DNA of 41,401 nucleotides. Source: Methanolobus sp. Lineage in GTDB: Archaea; Halobacteriota; Methanosarcinia; Methanosarcinales; Methanosarcinaceae. Below the pieces are notes generated by a model that ran no database searches, was not told the origin of the DNA, and saw only the letters and a list, made by a program, of their open reading frames with translations. Shown piece after piece: positions 6,171 through 14,660 of this stretch (position 1 is the stretch's first letter; each line of letters starts with the position of its first letter). Location of the stretch: NCBI GenBank assembly GCA_029762595.1, contig JARVGJ010000020.1, positions 1 to 41,401 of the forward strand, in the 5' to 3' direction. The translations under genes were made by a program, and so were the position numbers.

Positions 6171-6427
6171 CGGAAATTTTCATGCTAAGGTTCTTTTACA
6201 GAAAAAGTATCTGATATGATATATGCATTCTTATATAATAATTTGAAAGGGATAATTACGTTGTATGAAATTAACATCAAGAACCAGAATTAAAAAAGAA
6301 TTGATATGCGAATATGCACACTGAATTATCAAGAAATATAAAACGCTTTAGCCAAAGAGTTTTTATTTCCTGCTCGCCCAGATATAATGAAACAAAAAAA
6401 TGGAACATATAAGAGTGGAGGGATCTT
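6171..6427. other. divergent promoter region between CAP gene and cooS-like gene
   Basis: No gene is seen. A TATA-like box (atataaaa, about 6337-6344) lies about 85 bases before the cooS-like start, and AT-rich boxes around 6210-6240 face the CAP gene. Confidence 0.45.
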
Positions 6428-8332
6428 GTGGAAGAAGATAGGATATCGTATCATGATTCAGTGCGTACAGTGTACAAAAGAATAAAAGAGGACGGTATGA
6501 CCAATATATGGGACCGTTATGAAGCCCAGGGGATGGGAGGCAACCCGGACAGGAGATGTACCTTCTGCCAGGGGGGCATGCGTTGTGATCTGTGCTCTAA
6601 CGGACCATGCCGTGCTGATGCCGCTAAAGATAAAAGAGGAGTCTGTGGAATAACTGCAGATGGTATGGCAATGCGTATGATGCTGCTGCGCAATGTCATG
6701 GGTGCCTCGACCTACCAGTACCACACCAACCAGACCATAAAGACATTGAGAGCCACTGCAAAGGGTGAGACTCCCTTTAAGATAAGCGAGGAAGACAAAC
6801 TGAGAAACTTTGCAGGCAGGCTGGGCGTGGATAACAGTGGTGATGTGAATGACCTTGCCCTGAGACTCTGTGATTTCGTGGAAGCTGATTTTACCAGGGA
6901 GTACGGAAAGCCCAGCAGGATTGTGGAGATGCTTGCTCCCCGGGAAAGGCAGGAATTGTGGAAGAAGATCGGCATCTTTCCCGGAGGTATACAGACCGAG
7001 ATACTCAGGTCAACAAGCTCTTCCCTGACAAACGTGGACGGGAACTATGTCAGCCTTGCATTGAAGGCCATGAAACTGGGAGTTGCCATGGCATACCAGA
7101 GCCAGATAGTCAACGAGTACTGCCAGGATATTATTTTCGGATTACCCCGTCCTCACAACATGAGGGTTGACCTGGGAGTGCTTGATCCTGATTACGTTAA
7201 TATGCTGCCTAACGGGCATGAGCCTTTCCTTGGCTTTGCAATGGTGCAGCTTGCCCGAAAGCCGGAGTGGCAGGACAGGGCAAAACAGGCCGGTGCAAAG
7301 GGTCTTCGCATAATTGCCAACATCGAGACAGGCCAGGAAATGATACAGAGATGGGCCATGGATGATGTGTTCTATGGATTTACCGGGAACTGGATCATGC
7401 AGGAAGCAATAATGGCCAGCGCTTGTGTGGATGTGTTTGTCGCAGACATGAACTGTTCCATGCCCATCGACCCGATGTATGCTGAAAGATACAAGTTCAG
7501 ACTGATTCCCGTAAGTGATCTGGTATCATTTGAGGGGGTCAGTGAGCGCCTGGATTACATACCTGAAAAGGCAAGCGAGCAGGCAGCCCGATTGCTGGGG
7601 ATGGGAATAGATAATTTCAAAGAGCGACATGGCTCCGTTACACCTGTCACAGGCCTGCCGCTAAGTGAAGCAGTTGTCGGGTTCTCCACCGAAAGCATAC
7701 TGGAAGCCCTTGGAGGAAAACTGGACCCGCTCCTGGATGCTATCAAAAGCGGAACCTTACGCGGGGTTGCGGGGCTTGTTTCATGTACTACACTGAGGGA
7801 TTCCGGACAGGACAGCCACAGCATTGCAGTTGCAAAGGAACTCATAAAAAGGGATGTACTTGTACTCTCCATGGGATGCGGCAATGCAGCAATGCAGGTT
7901 GGCGGCTTGTGCAGTCCACAGGCAAAGGAACTTGCAGGTCCCGGACTCAGGTCCATATGTGAGGCGCTGGGAACTCCGCCGGTGCTCAGTTACGGGACAT
8001 GCACTGACACAGGCAGGATAGCTGACCTGATAGCTGCGGTTTCAGCAGGTCTTGGAGGTGTTCCCATACCTGATCTCCCGGTGGTTGCCACGGCTCCTGA
8101 GTACATGGAGCAGAAAGCTACAATTGATGCTGTCTTTGCACTGGCACTGGGACTTTACACGCATGTGAATCCGATTCCTACGGTAACCGGAGCACCAAAC
8201 CTTGTGAAACTGCTGACAGAGGACTGTAAAGACGTTACAGGCGGGGTCTTGAGTGTGGAGACCGATGCAGTGAAAGCAGTCGAGCTCATGCTTGAGCATA
8301 TAGAGCAAAACCGCAGGAAACTTGGAATATGA
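6428..8332 (+). CDS. cooS: CooS-family (Ni-CODH scaffold) protein with altered cluster ligands
   Basis: 634 residues, full length for monofunctional CODH. It starts at GTG behind GGAGGGATC. Conserved features: B-cluster cysteines C53, C56, C61 and C73; C-cluster region H264 (NGHEP), C343 (DMNCSMP), C453 (GLVSCTTLRD), C484 (SMGCGNAAM), C525 (SYGTCTDTGR) and K563. Departures, judged by motif alignment from memory: the CCTGNE motif reads IETGQE, so a C-cluster cysteine is E300; the His-channel motif (AHSxH) reads TYQYH, putting Y96 at the first His; and the D-cluster cysteines are C44 and C47 (CxxC). CO oxidation is therefore doubtful; a hybrid-cluster-like or CODH-V-like reductase is an alternative. 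No cooC, cooF or hydrogenase gene is adjacent. The downstream P-ATPase follows after 69 bases. Confidence 0.85.
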   Translation: MEEDRISYHDSVRTVYKRIKEDGMTNIWDRYEAQGMGGNPDRRCTFCQGGMRCDLCSNGPCRADAAKDKRGVCGITADGMAMRMMLLRNVMGASTYQYHTNQTIKTLRATAKGETPFKISEEDKLRNFAGRLGVDNSGDVNDLALRLCDFVEADFTREYGKPSRIVEMLAPRERQELWKKIGIFPGGIQTEILRSTSSSLTNVDGNYVSLALKAMKLGVAMAYQSQIVNEYCQDIIFGLPRPHNMRVDLGVLDPDYVNMLPNGHEPFLGFAMVQLARKPEWQDRAKQAGAKGLRIIANIETGQEMIQRWAMDDVFYGFTGNWIMQEAIMASACVDVFVADMNCSMPIDPMYAERYKFRLIPVSDLVSFEGVSERLDYIPEKASEQAARLLGMGIDNFKERHGSVTPVTGLPLSEAVVGFSTESILEALGGKLDPLLDAIKSGTLRGVAGLVSCTTLRDSGQDSHSIAVAKELIKRDVLVLSMGCGNAAMQVGGLCSPQAKELAGPGLRSICEALGTPPVLSYGTCTDTGRIADLIAAVSAGLGGVPIPDLPVVATAPEYMEQKATIDAVFALALGLYTHVNPIPTVTGAPNLVKLLTEDCKDVTGGVLSVETDAVKAVELMLEHIEQNRRKLGI

Positions 8333-8401: not shown

Positions 8402-10498
8402 ATGGATCATGATAAGACCACCGGGGACATGGATGAACATGTAATGCATGAGTCAATGCATGAAAATGAAATCCATCAAGCTCACAAAGGCAATCAGGAT
8501 CATCAGGAACATAAAGGACATGCAAACCACCATGAAATGATGGTGCAGGATTTCCGGAAGAGGTTCTGGGTATCGGTTATACTTACAATACCGATACTTT
8601 TGCTCTCACCCATGATCAGGCAGTTCCTGCATTCGATATCCGGGATCATTATCCCCTCCTTTACAGGGGATACTTATCTTCTTTTTGCATTTTCCACATT
8701 GATCTTCTTCTACGGGGGATGGCCTTTCCTTAAAGGGATAATTGAGGAGCTCAGGTCAAAGAATCCCGGTATGATGACACTTATAGCTGTTGCCATCACA
8801 GTTGCGTACAGCTACAGCAGCCTGGTGGTCTTCGGACTTGAAGGCAAGCTCTTTTTCTGGGAACTGGCAACACTGATAGACATCATGCTGCTGGGACACT
8901 GGCTGGAGATGAAGTCTGTTATGGGCGCTTCCATGGCCCTGCAGGAACTGGTAAAGCTCATGCCGGCCGATGCCCACCTGATAGGCTCCGATGGAAAAAT
9001 GGAAGATGTACCTGTAAACCAGCTTAAAATGGAAGATAAGGTCCTTGTAAAACCAGGGGAGAAGATCCCTGTAGATGGTGTTGTCCTGGAAGAGCAGAGC
9101 TCTGTGAATGAAGCAATGCTCACAGGTGAATCAAACCCCGTTCCAAAGGAAACAGGGGATGAAGTTATAGGCGGGGCTGTCAACGGAGAAGGTTCTCTGA
9201 CAATTGAAGTACGCAAGACAGGGAAGGAATCTTTTCTGTCCCAGATGCTTGACCTTGTATCACAGGCCCAGCAAAGCAAATCCAGAACGCAGAATCTTGC
9301 CGACAGGGCAGCCTTGTGGCTTACGATAATAGCCCTGACAGCCGGAACACTCACTTTTTTCACCTGGCTGAGATTAATGGATACAGATATTGCCTTTTCA
9401 CTTGAAAGAGCGGTGACTGTCATGGTCATCACCTGCCCGCATGCACTGGGACTGGCAATCCCTCTTGTTGTTGCTGTCTCATCTGCCATAGGTGCCAGGA
9501 ACGGTCTGCTTATCAGGAACAGGGGGCCATTTGAAAGAGCACGGAACATAGATGCGGTTATCTTTGACAAGACAGGTACCCTCACAAAAGGGGAATTCGG
9601 CGTCAGTGATGTTGTCCCTTTAACCGGAAATATGGAAAAGGATGAAATACTGAAATATGCCGCATCCATAGAAGCAAACTCCGAGCATCCCATAGCCAAG
9701 GCCATCCTTGATTCATCGGATGGGGTCTACAAGGTCGAAAACTTCAATGCAATTGCCGGGAAAGGAGCGGAAGGAGTAGTAAATGGAAAGGAAGTCAAAG
9801 TGGTAAGTCCCGGATACCTGAAAGAGAAAGGTATCGATTACCAGGAAGGGCGACTGAAAGATATTGACAACACAGGAATGACTGTGGTCTTTGTATTGAT
9901 CCAGGGAGAAGCTGTCGGGGCCATTGCACTGGAAGATGTGATCAGGCCACAATCAAAGGAAGTGGTCAGCAGGCTGAAGGATATGGGCATCAAATGCATC
10001 ATGCTTACAGGTGACCGGAAACATGTGGCTGAAAGAGTGGCCGGGCAGATCGGCCTTGATGAATACTTTGCAGGTGTCCTTCCAGATGAAAAGGCCTCCA
10101 GGATAAAAGAAGTACAGCAAAGGGGACTCACTGTTGCAATGGTGGGTGATGGCATCAATGACGCACCTGCCCTGGCACAGGCAGATATCGGAATAGCCAT
10201 TGGTGCAGGTACCGATGTTGCAGTGGAAACAGCGGACATTGTCCTGGTAAAAAGCAATCCTCTTGATGTTGTTGCAAGCATAGAACTCTCCCGTGCCACA
10301 TACCGCAAGATGCTGCAGAACCTTTTCTGGGCCACAGGTTATAATGCACTTGCAATACCACTGGCAGCCGGGGTGCTTTACCAGCAGGGAATACTGCTCT
10401 CACCTGCCGCAGGGGCTGTACTGATGTCCCTGAGTACCATCATCGTTGCAATCAACGCCAGGTTACTATCAATTGACAAGAACATGAGTATCGATTAA
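8402..10498 (+). CDS. copB: CopB-type heavy-metal P1B-ATPase
   Basis: 698 residues. The N-terminal tail has eleven histidines in the first 44 residues, a metal-binding signature. Further on are membrane helices, the actuator TGES (241-244), the CPH motif (345-347, VITCPHALG), the phosphorylation site D389 ([12 protein letters not shown]), the ATP-binding segment SEHPIAKAI, the hinge [16 protein letters not shown], and a last helix with [15 protein letters not shown] with a His-rich tail and MSxST fits subgroup P1B-3 (CopB), usually Cu(I)/Cu(II) export. A GAGGAGAT Shine-Dalgarno sits just upstream. It may be cotranscribed with the cooS-like gene; a functional link is not evident. Confidence 0.92.
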
Positions 10499-10538: not shown

Positions 10539-12215
10539 ATGGATATCCTGATACCGGACATTGTTGATACGGCCCTTATAAGTGGTGTGATATCACTTTT
10601 CATTTTTGCAGACATACTGTTGAAGAACTATCTTAAAATTGATCTTAAGGAGGTCGGAGCTGACCTTGCTATCGGTGCATTTGTTATCCAGCTTGCATTC
10701 CTTGCAACGTTGCTAACTGATCAGCAGATGGATCATTTCAAGTATAACGTAATCCTTGCTATCTGTTTTGCATTCTTCTGGCTTTTATGCCTCTGGCTGA
10801 CAGCTAAGGGAAATGTTTTAACTGAAATGTTTTCCTACACCATCGGAACATTGTCTCTTGCAGCAGCAACCATGCATTTTTTGGGAAGTTTCAAAGCCAC
10901 GGGCATGATGTTGTTGTTTGCATACGCTTTTGTCCTGTCTGTTGTGGCCTTCCTTCTGGCAGACTATCTCAAAAAGGAAGCAGTCAGATCGGATCTTGAG
11001 AAACTTGTTAAAGACCTGCAGATCTATGATATGAACGAAAGTTACAGGAAACTGGCAGCCGGAAAAAGAAATACAGATCCGCTCCAGCCGCTTATCGACG
11101 TTATCCGCGGGGCTGTCAGGAATAATAATGATATGCTTGCTATCACAGGTATCCGGATAATCCCTGAGCTGGCTACAAAGGTCCTGGCCTTGGGTGCTAA
11201 CAATGGCTTGATCATAAAACATCTCAATATGCATCTTTACCAGATAGCCATTCTTGCAGATCATGAAAGGAACCGATACGTACTGATGGAAACCATCGAT
11301 GCTTTCGGTTCAATGGGAAAACAGTGTTCTATGGCAGGTATGGATGATCTCACCCTTCATACCATCAACAATATAAACAGCTTTTTTGAAATGCACAGAG
11401 AAAGAGGGTATTTCCCAAAGCCTGATAAACTGGCATTGCTGATGAACTCAAAAAACCCAAAGGACATTATTAACATCGCCAGGAAGAAAACAATAGCTAC
11501 CCCACTGCATAAGCTTGCAATAGCTATTGGTGACATCGGGACGACATCTGCAAAGAAAGACATGCTGGACCCTACTGAAAAGTCCGTGGTACTCCTGAAA
11601 AGAATAGCCCTTGATGCTGCAGATAACAGGGATAAGGCTACCCTTGATAATATCAGGAAGGTACTTTTGGGGCTTGCGGCAACAATTGATAATAAGGATC
11701 TTGAGAGTTTAAAAAGACTGATGATCTATGCATTGAGGGACATAGGAATAAAGACCGTTCAAAAGTCCCATGACCGGAAAAAGCATGAATGCCTTGACAG
11801 GGTGATAGAGGCTTTGAAAGAGATAGGAGAGGTCTTCGGGGACGATTCCATCCCTGATGTGGCAGCAGCCCTGAAGGATATAGGAATAGTTGCCGCAAGA
11901 ATGCATGCCGATGAAAAGGTCACTCAGGTCATTCCGGTAATGGAACATTTCTGTACGGTTGCGGCACAAAAAAATCTGGGGGACCAGGCTTCACAGGCTG
12001 TGCATGGGATACTTGAGGTCTGCGAGATATCCATACGCGAACAGATGGTAGAATCCACCGCAAGTTCCTCAAAGAGCCTTGCAAAGCTTTCAAGGATCGA
12101 ATGTATCTCTGTTATTGTCAACGATGCCGTATTTGAGATAGGAAAGTACAGGGAAATGGACAGGGAGATGTTCGCACTTTTTGATAAGACCTACCGCAAG
12201 TCGGGCGGGAGGTAG
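10539..12215 (+). CDS. membrane protein with large alpha-helical cytosolic part, UAG stop
   Basis: 558 residues; not recognised. The N-terminal third holds about five hydrophobic segments (roughly 9-29, 42-62, 74-92, 96-117, 121-142). From about 150 onward it is soluble and helical with repeated patterns of the kind ...I..A...IG..... (for example IAIGDIGTTSAKKD, ALRDIGIKTVQKS, ALKEIGEVFGDDS, ALKDIGIVAARM), suggesting HEAT/ARM-like repeats of about 40 residues that could form a protein-binding scaffold. It is probably leaderless. The stop is TAG at 12213-12215; a second in-frame TAG follows 18 codons later, and TAA only further on, so pyrrolysine readthrough would give a 3' extension. Nothing in the context indicates function. 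Confidence 0.85.
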   Translation: MDILIPDIVDTALISGVISLFIFADILLKNYLKIDLKEVGADLAIGAFVIQLAFLATLLTDQQMDHFKYNVILAICFAFFWLLCLWLTAKGNVLTEMFSYTIGTLSLAAATMHFLGSFKATGMMLLFAYAFVLSVVAFLLADYLKKEAVRSDLEKLVKDLQIYDMNESYRKLAAGKRNTDPLQPLIDVIRGAVRNNNDMLAITGIRIIPELATKVLALGANNGLIIKHLNMHLYQIAILADHERNRYVLMETIDAFGSMGKQCSMAGMDDLTLHTINNINSFFEMHRERGYFPKPDKLALLMNSKNPKDIINIARKKTIATPLHKLAIAIGDIGTTSAKKDMLDPTEKSVVLLKRIALDAADNRDKATLDNIRKVLLGLAATIDNKDLESLKRLMIYALRDIGIKTVQKSHDRKKHECLDRVIEALKEIGEVFGDDSIPDVAAALKDIGIVAARMHADEKVTQVIPVMEHFCTVAAQKNLGDQASQAVHGILEVCEISIREQMVESTASSSKSLAKLSRIECISVIVNDAVFEIGKYREMDREMFALFDKTYRKSGGR

Positions 12216-12349: not shown

Positions 12350-13243
12350 ATGGAAATCAACGGAGTAGAAATCGAAGATACTTTTGCAGAAGCGTTCCCG
12401 ATCAAAATAGCAAGAGTGCTTATCACCGCAGCAACAAAACGCTGGGCTGAGGTAGCTGCACTTGAAGCAACAGGATTTGGTACATCTGTTATTATGTGTC
12501 CTGCTGAGGCAGGTATTGAGAAATTCGTGGGTCCTGATGAGACACCTGACGGAAGGCCCGGTGTTTATATACAGATCTGTACCTTCGGATACGATGCACT
12601 TGAACACCAGTTACTTGAGCGCCTTGGCCAGTGTGTACTCACAGCACCTACAACAGCGGTCTTTAACGGGCTTCCTGATGCTGAGAAACAGTTCAACGTA
12701 GGTTTCAAGCTCAAGTTCTTCGGTGATGGTATGGAATCCGAGACCGAGCTAGCCGGTCGCAAGATGTACAGCATCCCTATAATGGAAGGTGACTTCCTCG
12801 TGGAAGAGAACATCGGCGCTGTTGCAGGTATCGCAGGCGGTAACTTCTTCATCTTCGGTGACAGCCAGATGACAGCACTCACAGCAGCAGAGGTTGCGGT
12901 GGAAGCTATCAAGGACATGGAAGGTACTATCACTCCATTCCCAGGCGGAATCGTTGCAAGTGGCTCAAAAGCAGGTTTTAACAACTACAAGTTCATGAAG
13001 GCAACTGCAAACGAGAAGTTCTGCCCATCCATCAGGGACAAGGTCGAAGGCACCGAGATCCCAGAAGGTGTAAAGGCAGTTTACGAGCTTGTCATTAACG
13101 GCCTTGACGAGGATGCTATCCAGAGAGCCATGAAGGCAGGCATCGAAGCAGCTGTTGCCGTCCCCGGTGTCTCAAAGATCACCGCAGGAAACTACGGCGG
13201 AAAGCTCGGAAAGTACCAGTTCCACCTGAAAGACCTTTGTTAA
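12350..13243 (+). CDS. ftr: formylmethanofuran:tetrahydromethanopterin formyltransferase
   Basis: 297 residues, the normal length for Ftr. It starts [19 protein letters not shown] and contains the conserved stretches [40 protein letters not shown] and SITPFPGG-like [17 protein letters not shown]. The cytoplasmic enzyme moves the formyl group between methanofuran and H4MPT (H4SPT), the second step of CO2 reduction. In methylotrophic growth it runs in reverse, in the oxidative branch that yields reducing power. It is monocistronic by its surroundings. AAGGGA sits 7-12 bases before the ATG. Confidence 0.97.
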
Positions 13244-13355: not shown

Positions 13356-14660
13356 ATGGTACAAATAGACAGGCTTAGCAAATTACTGAGAAACACCCCA
13401 CTTAACGCATTTACCGGGTGGGCAATGGTAGTACTGCTTTTTGTGCTTGGGATTGTTAACCTGATGAACGGAAGGCTCACATGGTTTGCGCTTATAGTTC
13501 TTGTTATCTGCATCATAATAGCGCCTGCGTTGCTATTGCGCAAATTCTCTGTCATGCCATCCTGGTATTTCGTTGTACTGGCAATAATACCAATACTTGG
13601 CAGCACCACAGCTTATTATTTATTTCTCACGGCCATACCTGTTTATTTCTCAGTGGCAACTATTGCACTGCTGCTGGCAGCGGAGATCAGCTGGTTCACA
13701 TCTGTGCGCATGCACTATAAGTTTGCCATAGTCCTTGTGGTAGTCACAACGCTTGCAATGTCAGGACTGTGGCACCTGCTGCAATGGCATATGGATATTA
13801 GTCTGGGTACTTCATTCCTTCTTGATGGGAGAACGTCTGAAGAGATCAATGCCCATGTAATGTACAGGTTTATTTATGCAACAATAACCGGTATTATTGC
13901 AGGACTGTTTTTTGGCTGGTACTTTAAAAAAGAGCGCCCTGGGGAAAGGATCGAACTTCCACCACAGGGATCAATGAAGACACCTGATTTTCCTTCAACT
14001 GTACCCCCTGCACCAATCTACAAACTTCTTGGCATGTCAGATGAGAAACAGAAACTTGCAACAAGGATTATGCAAGCAGGACTTTTCATGTTATTTATGG
14101 TTGGAATTGGCATGAAGGATCTGCACACTACCCTGAATGCAATTGCCGGGCTTGCCATTACATTCGTCCCTGCCATTATAAGAAATAAATATAGTATTGT
14201 CCTTGACCCCGGGCTGGCCCTGTGGATCACACTTGCGATCTTCCTGGATGTTCTTGGAACATTTGCATTCTACAATAATATAGCAAGATGGGATAACTTA
14301 ACTCACACTGTATCAGCCATTGTCGTAGCTGCTGCAGGTTATGTGCTGATAAGATCCATAGATATACACTCAGATAAGATATACATACCTCCCAAAGTAC
14401 TGTTCCTTTTTATTCTGCTATTCATACTTGCAACCAGTGTACTCTGGGAAATACTGGAGTTCCTTACCGATGAAATGGCTAAGGAACTTGGCATCAAGGT
14501 TTTTTTGATCCAGCACGGTATTAACGATACAATGACAGACATGTCATTCAATTTACTGGGAGCCATCCTTGTAGCTATCTGGGGCACTGCCTATCTTTCC
14601 GACATATCCTACAGGCTTGCGGATAAGTTCGGGGAGAAGGCTGCTAAAAAGAAGGAATAA
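13356..14660 (+). CDS. polytopic membrane protein, unknown function
   Basis: 434 residues with about ten hydrophobic segments in two halves, separated by a cytosolic loop near residues 195-230 (KKERPGERIELPPQ). The second half has conserved-looking charged residues within membrane segments: DNLTHTVSAIVVAAAGYVL, ATSVLWEILEFLTDEMA, GINDTMTDMSFNLLGA. This pattern (H, WExxE, DTxxDMxxN) resembles the YjdF/DUF2238 family of inner-membrane proteins, a guess from motif memory only. No Shine-Dalgarno precedes the ATG and an AT-rich box lies about 35 bases upstream, so it may be leaderless. Not part of an operon. Confidence 0.8.
   Translation: MVQIDRLSKLLRNTPLNAFTGWAMVVLLFVLGIVNLMNGRLTWFALIVLVICIIIAPALLLRKFSVMPSWYFVVLAIIPILGSTTAYYLFLTAIPVYFSVATIALLLAAEISWFTSVRMHYKFAIVLVVVTTLAMSGLWHLLQWHMDISLGTSFLLDGRTSEEINAHVMYRFIYATITGIIAGLFFGWYFKKERPGERIELPPQGSMKTPDFPSTVPPAPIYKLLGMSDEKQKLATRIMQAGLFMLFMVGIGMKDLHTTLNAIAGLAITFVPAIIRNKYSIVLDPGLALWITLAIFLDVLGTFAFYNNIARWDNLTHTVSAIVVAAAGYVLIRSIDIHSDKIYIPPKVLFLFILLFILATSVLWEILEFLTDEMAKELGIKVFLIQHGINDTMTDMSFNLLGAILVAIWGTAYLSDISYRLADKFGEKAAKKKE

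Follow-up and report, generated by a model that had tools for sequence, protein, structure and literature searches.

The locus analysed here lies in a 41,401-nt stretch of Methanolobus sp. DNA (the whole of which is referred to below as the window) and raises the question of what a protein with the fold of a CO dehydrogenase does when its active site carries a glutamate in place of a cysteine. CooS-V-type proteins are annotated everywhere as CO dehydrogenases and the one that has been studied is not, while in two surveys the gene neighbourhoods of clade D or of its structural group D-1 proved uninformative (PMC13056359, PMC6344411), the eLife 2026 survey describing clade D as having no clear neighbourhood pattern (PMC13056359). 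The neighbour families that we find point to the Hcp system, and what they add is a functional link that can be tested.

Identity and active site of the Methanolobus protein

The encoded protein matches the Prismane family (Pfam PF03063, E 2e-138 in a profile search) and scores 731 bits against NCBIfam TIGR01702, for which the cut-off is 478. Of the PDB entries, its sequence matches CooS-V from Carboxydothermus hydrogenoformans best (694 bits, 51% identity; the next CODH reaches 400 bits), and the AF2 model (pLDDT 85, pTM 0.89, with low confidence in the N-terminal metal-binding loop at about residues 30-60) finds its best fold match in the same protein, with a TM score of 0.95 and an rmsd of 1.8-1.9 Å, as against a TM score of 0.92 for the Thermococcus CODH. 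In a tree built by a quick method, which leaves the deep branching order unsettled, it falls within a subgroup (82 sequences, support 100) that stands apart both from CooS-V and from another subgroup of the same order. Because the protein has the D-1 residue set and its best PDB match, in sequence and in fold, is CooS-V, we assign it to the CooS-V type, that is, to structural group D-1 of Ni-CODH clade D. The structural comparison and the tree placement had both been suggested as checks in an original prediction made for this DNA, which had treated CODH-V as a loose analogue; the two proteins in fact belong to the same group.

In phmmer alignments E300 lies opposite the first C-cluster cysteine of the solved CODHs, where ETGQE aligns with CTGNE, and also opposite CooS-V Glu295 (Table 1), which bears out the prediction that IETGQE stands at the canonical CCTGNE site; a cysteine at the C295-equivalent position was looked for in the alignments and not found. 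The residues that had been listed as kept (H264, C343, C453, C484, C525 and K563) are all present at these numbers, and the reading of TYQYH in place of AHSxH and of C44 and C47 as a CxxC D-cluster proved equally sound. What had been overlooked, besides CooS-V as the best PDB match, is Glu561, which sits two residues ahead of K563 and is missing from canonical CODHs. By its equivalence to Glu556 of CooS-V and Glu494 of HCP, Glu561 is predicted to be the second hybrid-cluster ligand, and the hybrid-cluster ligand set (H264, E300, E561 and four Cys) is complete in the Methanolobus protein. The full C-cluster Cys set of classical Ni-CODHs (clades A, E and F) is absent, with Glu at the Cys295 position, and the Hcp hydroxylamine reductase model NF003658 returns 24 bits, below its cut-off of 367.

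Table 1. Features of the cooS-V locus, in window coordinates.
Feature	Position	Strand	Basis or remark
Candidate archaeal BRE/TATA promoter element CCAAAGAGTTTTTAT	6352..6366	+	upstream-region alignment, 17 Methanolobus copies
cooS-V-type gene, assigned to clade D structural group D-1	6428..8332	+	634 aa, GTG start
D-cluster C44 + C47	6557..6568	+	CxxC, type III; invariant in 81/81 sequences; expected [2Fe-2S]
B-cluster C53, C56, C61, C73	6584..6646	+	CX2CX4CX11C; invariant (81 sequences)
TYQYH (residues 95-99) replacing AHSxH	6710..6724	+	Y96 where the acid-base His would be; H99 retained
H264, cluster ligand (CooS-V His259)	7217..7219	+	phmmer alignments; homologue set
IETGQE, with E300 codon at 7325-7327	7322..7339	+	Cys295-to-Glu swap; CooS-V Glu295
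N342 + C343 (CooS-V Asn337 + Cys338)	7451..7456	+	CooS-V paper; homologue set
C453 (CooS-V Cys449)	7784..7786	+	CooS-V paper; homologue set
C484 (CooS-V Cys480)	7877..7879	+	CooS-V paper; homologue set
C525 (CooS-V Cys521, persulfide-forming Cys)	8000..8002	+	CooS-V paper; homologue set
E561 (CooS-V Glu556, HCP Glu494) + K563	8108..8116	+	alignment, homologue set, Inoue 2019
CopB-like heavy-metal P-type ATPase	8402..10498	+	TIGR01511, 634 bits; CPH motif at 345, His-rich N-terminus

A wholly new active site was considered and rejected, since the site was described in 2019 (Inoue) and 2022 (Jeoung). Group D-1 was defined by a type III D-cluster, a His, a Glu, four Cys, a Tyr, a Lys and the extra Glu, and its site was noted as equal to that of HCP (Inoue 2019, PMC6344411). 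The Glu swap with a CxxC D-cluster and a Tyr is the already published D-1 signature, and the Methanolobus protein is a typical representative of a group that is described but poorly understood; the original prediction that it is probably not a classical CODH and may be a reductase agrees with the CODH-V-type match but is not new. The solved CooS-V has a [4Fe-3S]/[4Fe-2S-S-2O] hybrid cluster ([4Fe-3S-nO]) and no Ni, and performs neither CO oxidation nor CO2 reduction (Jeoung 2022, PMC9311411). Its cluster rearranges reversibly, its gas channel is open only in the reduced state, its bridging cluster is [2Fe-2S] and its B-cluster motif is CX2CX4CX12C (PMC9311411). It reduces hydroxylamine slowly (kcat/KM 20 M-1 s-1, lower even than R. 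rubrum CODH) and NO not above background, and the C295E variant of CODH-II has lost both Ni and CO oxidation (PMC9311411). Given such slow turnover by CooS-V, hydroxylamine was not a good choice as the likely substrate in the cell.

With CooS-V (PDB 7B7Q and related entries) the Methanolobus protein shares the fold, the Glu295/Glu556 pair, the His and Cys ligands, those of the B- and D-clusters and the proton-channel Tyr, but it has a loop 5-6 residues longer ahead of the D-cluster and a B-cluster spacing shorter by one residue, and it belongs, at the identity given above, to a separate well-supported subgroup. Every feature tabulated for group D-1 (a D-cluster of type III and the residues H, E, C, C, C, C, Y, K; PMC6344411) is present and the ligand set is identical, whereas the neighbours reported below are FrdX, cupin and Rrf2 instead of the COG1063, HypA and HypB named by Inoue 2019 (PMC6344411). 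Hcp, a monomer in classes I and II and a dimer in class III, has the same hybrid-cluster ligands and, in other genomes, homologous operon partners; in contrast to Hcp, the Methanolobus protein has a CODH-type scaffold with a bridging D-cluster, phmmer similarity reaches only E 1e-6, and the cluster potential is much lower in CooS-V (PMC9311411). Canonical CooS Ni-CODHs (CODH-II, Desulfovibrio vulgaris CODH) are alike in overall fold (TM about 0.92) but differ by the change of Cys295 to Glu, the Glu two residues ahead of K563 and the change of the proton-channel His to Tyr, at about 30-33% identity.

A scan of named genomes yielded 80 loci at 74-92% identity, distributed over archaea (Methanosarcinaceae, Lokiarchaeota, Helarchaeota, Jordarchaeia, Bathyarchaeota, Methanofastidiosum, Methanophagales and Thermoplasmata) and bacteria (WOR-3, Dehalococcoidia, Actinomycetota and Desulfobacterales), among other lineages. 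All 80 named homologues have Glu at the E300 position, and all 17 diagnostic residues are identical in 81/81 sequences (these homologues and the Methanolobus protein), so E300 is neither chance nor sequencing error; a sequencing error or lone mutation was rejected also on the dN/dS of 0.03-0.04 among the Methanolobus copies. Since one of the two peptide patterns with which the 80 loci were found, YMEQKAT, contains Glu561, the count for this residue is partly selected for; it is also kept in the members of alignment A1 drawn from the first 60 relatives, which were searched without patterns. The closest named relatives are those of M. psychrotolerans (92% identity) and M. vulcani (91%), and a CooS-V copy is present in 18 of the 26 Methanolobus congeners searched, at 82-92% identity. 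Bacterial and archaeal sequences are interleaved in the tree, with at least five domain changes of which strongly supported branches force only one, and no close plasmid-borne relatives were found (identities to the Methanolobus protein of 31% and 28%). One copy from another genus of the same family (L026; G030:C1:1841650-1843548, minus strand) has an in-frame TAG at codon 85, where other copies have Leu, in a frame that is open for the remainder; the TAG either arose by recent nonsense mutation or encodes pyrrolysine, in a methylotrophic methanogen.

Partners shared by cooS-V and hcp

ORFs were called up to 10 kb on each side of the 80 loci and then clustered, and partners were counted by profile searches. 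Across phyla, the gene met most often near cooS-V encodes a ferredoxin (about 270 aa) that has two [4Fe-4S] motifs (CDGLGACIGxCPEGAI) and whose C-terminal part is conserved. Within five ORFs of cooS-V, the FrdX-type ferredoxin occurs at 23 of the 80 loci, a cupin at 15 and an Rrf2 regulator at nine; any of the three is present at 32 loci and none at 48, and 47 of 48 partner genes share the direction of cooS-V. A rough binomial estimate, which assumes one ferredoxin copy per 2500 genes and ignores relatedness, puts the chance of 24 ferredoxin loci at about 3e-33. Whether the ferredoxin gene lies upstream or downstream of cooS-V varies with the lineage, and its adjacency implies at least 12 changes on the tree. 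No report of a link of FrdX or cupin to cooS-V was found in a literature search that had most subscription journals outside its scope. At seven Lokiarchaeota loci (L053, L061, L063, L065, L069, L094 and L114) a divergently oriented gene for an NAD(P)H oxidoreductase that ends in a rubredoxin domain is found along with genes for flavodoxin-type proteins; their products likely form an electron-supply set.

The same partners are found beside hcp. In the Methanolobus genome itself a cupin gene lies 52 bp downstream of hcp, and every one of the 25 Methanolobus cases, this genome among them, has a cupin gene 28-88 bp behind hcp in the same orientation; in four actinobacterial-type MAGs, homologues of this cupin (54-63% identity) are encoded immediately upstream of cooS-V. 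At another locus (L148), hcp is flanked by a second cupin type behind and a ferredoxin on the other side; this cupin is 50-60% identical to cupins adjoining cooS-V in Freyarchaeota, Jordarchaeia and Lokiarchaeota. A homologue of the ferredoxin (41% identical) is encoded on a Roseburia plasmid, where the order is hcp, Crp/Fnr regulator, ferredoxin. Because that order matches the published hcp-hcpR-frdX arrangement (PMC1274295, PMC545781), the ferredoxin is called FrdX-type here. In bacteria hcp and frdX are NO-induced (PMC12915319, PMC1274295), knockdown of either one renders C. difficile NO-sensitive (PMC12915319), and the cupin adjoining hcp in D. desulfuricans is NO-induced as well (PMC5701242). 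FrdX is not an exclusive partner of HCP or CooS-V, since it lies clearly near HCP in only 3 (G078, G079 and G097) of the 21 FrdX-bearing genomes of the phylum.

At the Methanolobus locus, neither frdX nor a cupin gene adjoins cooS-V, in the window or in Methanolobus generally, and FrdX was not found in three Methanolobus genomes searched at E 1e-30; the role of cooS-V may differ in this genus, or its partner genes may lie at other loci. Among the flanking genes that were scanned (Pfam, NCBIfam) there is no cooC, cooT or cooJ and no Ni-maturation or CO-metabolism genes. Upstream, CCAAAGAGTTTTTAT is the sole strongly conserved stretch in the alignment of the 17 copies and occurs once in the window; it is probably the archaeal BRE/TATA promoter element of the gene. 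The CopB-like ATPase gene starts 69 bp downstream of cooS-V, and co-transcription of the two is possible. Such a gene stands next to cooS-V in 9 of 20 Methanosarcinaceae relatives, the pairing being absent in the other 11, and a CopB-type ATPase as a general partner was rejected as confined to part of this family. Beyond it the window encodes a 558-aa membrane-anchored protein without a Pfam or NCBIfam match (10539-12215), which is kept beside cooS-V in several Methanolobus, a DUF2238-like membrane protein (13356-14660) and, in the same gene run, the core methanogenesis gene ftr (12350-13243), for formylmethanofuran:tetrahydromethanopterin formyltransferase.

A proposed reductase role and its alternatives

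The best-supported reading is that of an HCP-like low-potential reductase acting in nitrosative or oxidative stress. We consider it probable that the Methanolobus protein is a CooS-V-type hybrid-cluster reductase, for which Hcp-like protection against NO or related reactive nitrogen and oxygen species would be the likeliest function. The ligand set, the fold, the family placement and the partners shared with hcp in other genomes are computed results; the cluster type and the lack of CO activity are carried over from the solved homologue CooS-V. The protein would thus be a homodimer of CODH fold in which the Ni-containing C-cluster gives way to a hybrid cluster of the Fe-S-O kind, with His264, Glu300, Cys343, Cys453, Cys484, Cys525 and Glu561 as its ligands, and it would not be expected to oxidise CO. 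A ferredoxin-type donor would pass electrons into the bridging [2Fe-2S] D-cluster and the B-cluster; on reduction the hybrid cluster would collapse to [4Fe-3S] and the channel would open, and the reduced, open cluster would bind and reduce a small oxidised molecule. The electron donor, the substrate and the stress role are read from genome context alone, according to which the molecule would be a member of the nitrosative/oxidative stress set served by Hcp; for such a role the shared neighbours are indirect support. Counter to it stand the lack of all these partners at 48 of the 80 loci, the absence of frdX and cupin genes beside cooS-V in Methanolobus, the failure of CooS-V to reduce NO above background and its slow hydroxylamine turnover, and in Methanolobus a stress role would be redundant because the genome has two HCPs.

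The genetics of M. acetivorans also run counter to an Hcp-like role: Rother 2007, as cited in later work, reportedly suggested that CooS1F and CooS2 aid CO removal at high CO pressure. Together with the CooS fold, this would suit a functional Ni-CODH with an unusual ligand that removes CO. We regard such an enzyme as highly improbable, given that CooS-V has neither Ni nor CO activity, that the C295E exchange deprives CODH-II of both, that Glu300 and Glu561 belong to the HCP ligand set, that Ni-maturation genes are missing near cooS-V, and that five single-contig chromosomes (CP070802, CP070834, CP070664, CP070682 and CP070724) carry the CooS-V gene as their sole CODH/HCP-family gene.

The slow turnover and reversibly rearranging cluster of CooS-V would suit a redox or small-molecule sensor or regulator, in which the cluster would change its form with the redox state and so give a signal without substrate turnover, and redox-sensing or regulatory roles have been proposed for clade D from co-occurrence (PMC13056359). 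The conservation of a complete electron-transfer chain (D- and B-clusters) in all 81 sequences, the ferredoxin partner at more than a quarter of the loci and the strongly conserved, reductase-like site make a sensor unlikely. The CopB-like ATPase gene directly downstream, in the window as in some of its relatives, could instead mean that a hybrid-cluster reductase handles species other than those of N and O, for example in metal stress; this strikes us as quite improbable, the pairing being missing in over half of the Methanosarcinaceae relatives and the recurrent partners outside that family being those of hcp.

Co-occurrence with other CODH and HCP genes

Among 44 genomes of the subgroup, the CooS-V gene is the sole PF03063 match in 15, which include the five single-contig chromosomes; the others of these are mostly MAGs, which may lack part of the genome. 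In the majority of the remaining genomes CdhA or CooS is encoded, with CODH/ACS or CooF as neighbours, and an HCP was recognised, by frame length and the reading of 20 loci, in one of the 44. Mutual exclusion of HCP and CooS-V is only suggestive, and counter to it the Methanolobus genome carries both, encoding in addition to CooS-V one Cdh-type CODH (C4) and its two HCPs (C1). In Chloroflexota the gene occurs in 1 of 121 genomes, that one being the comparison's own centre. We tentatively propose, giving it a somewhat smaller chance of being right than wrong, that the CooS-V subgroup is a second, independently evolved hybrid cluster protein, which replaces Hcp beside FrdX, cupin and regulator in many anaerobic Bacteria, Archaea and Asgard and would serve as the nitrosative-stress reductase where Hcp is absent. 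Since concrete partners (FrdX, cupin) and lineages with CooS-V as the sole CODH/HCP-family member can now be named, the role of CooS-V is directly testable.

Thermoplasmata and Methanomassiliicoccales MAGs encode a protein of 1374-1378 aa (L143:3700-7836, L144:1666-5790 and L145:1932-6068); in the first of these, a complete CODH (Prismane) and the acetyl-CoA synthase domains CODH_A_N, CdhC and ACS_CODH_B_C are fused in a single chain, and the gene adjoins those of a small ferredoxin and of CODH/ACS.
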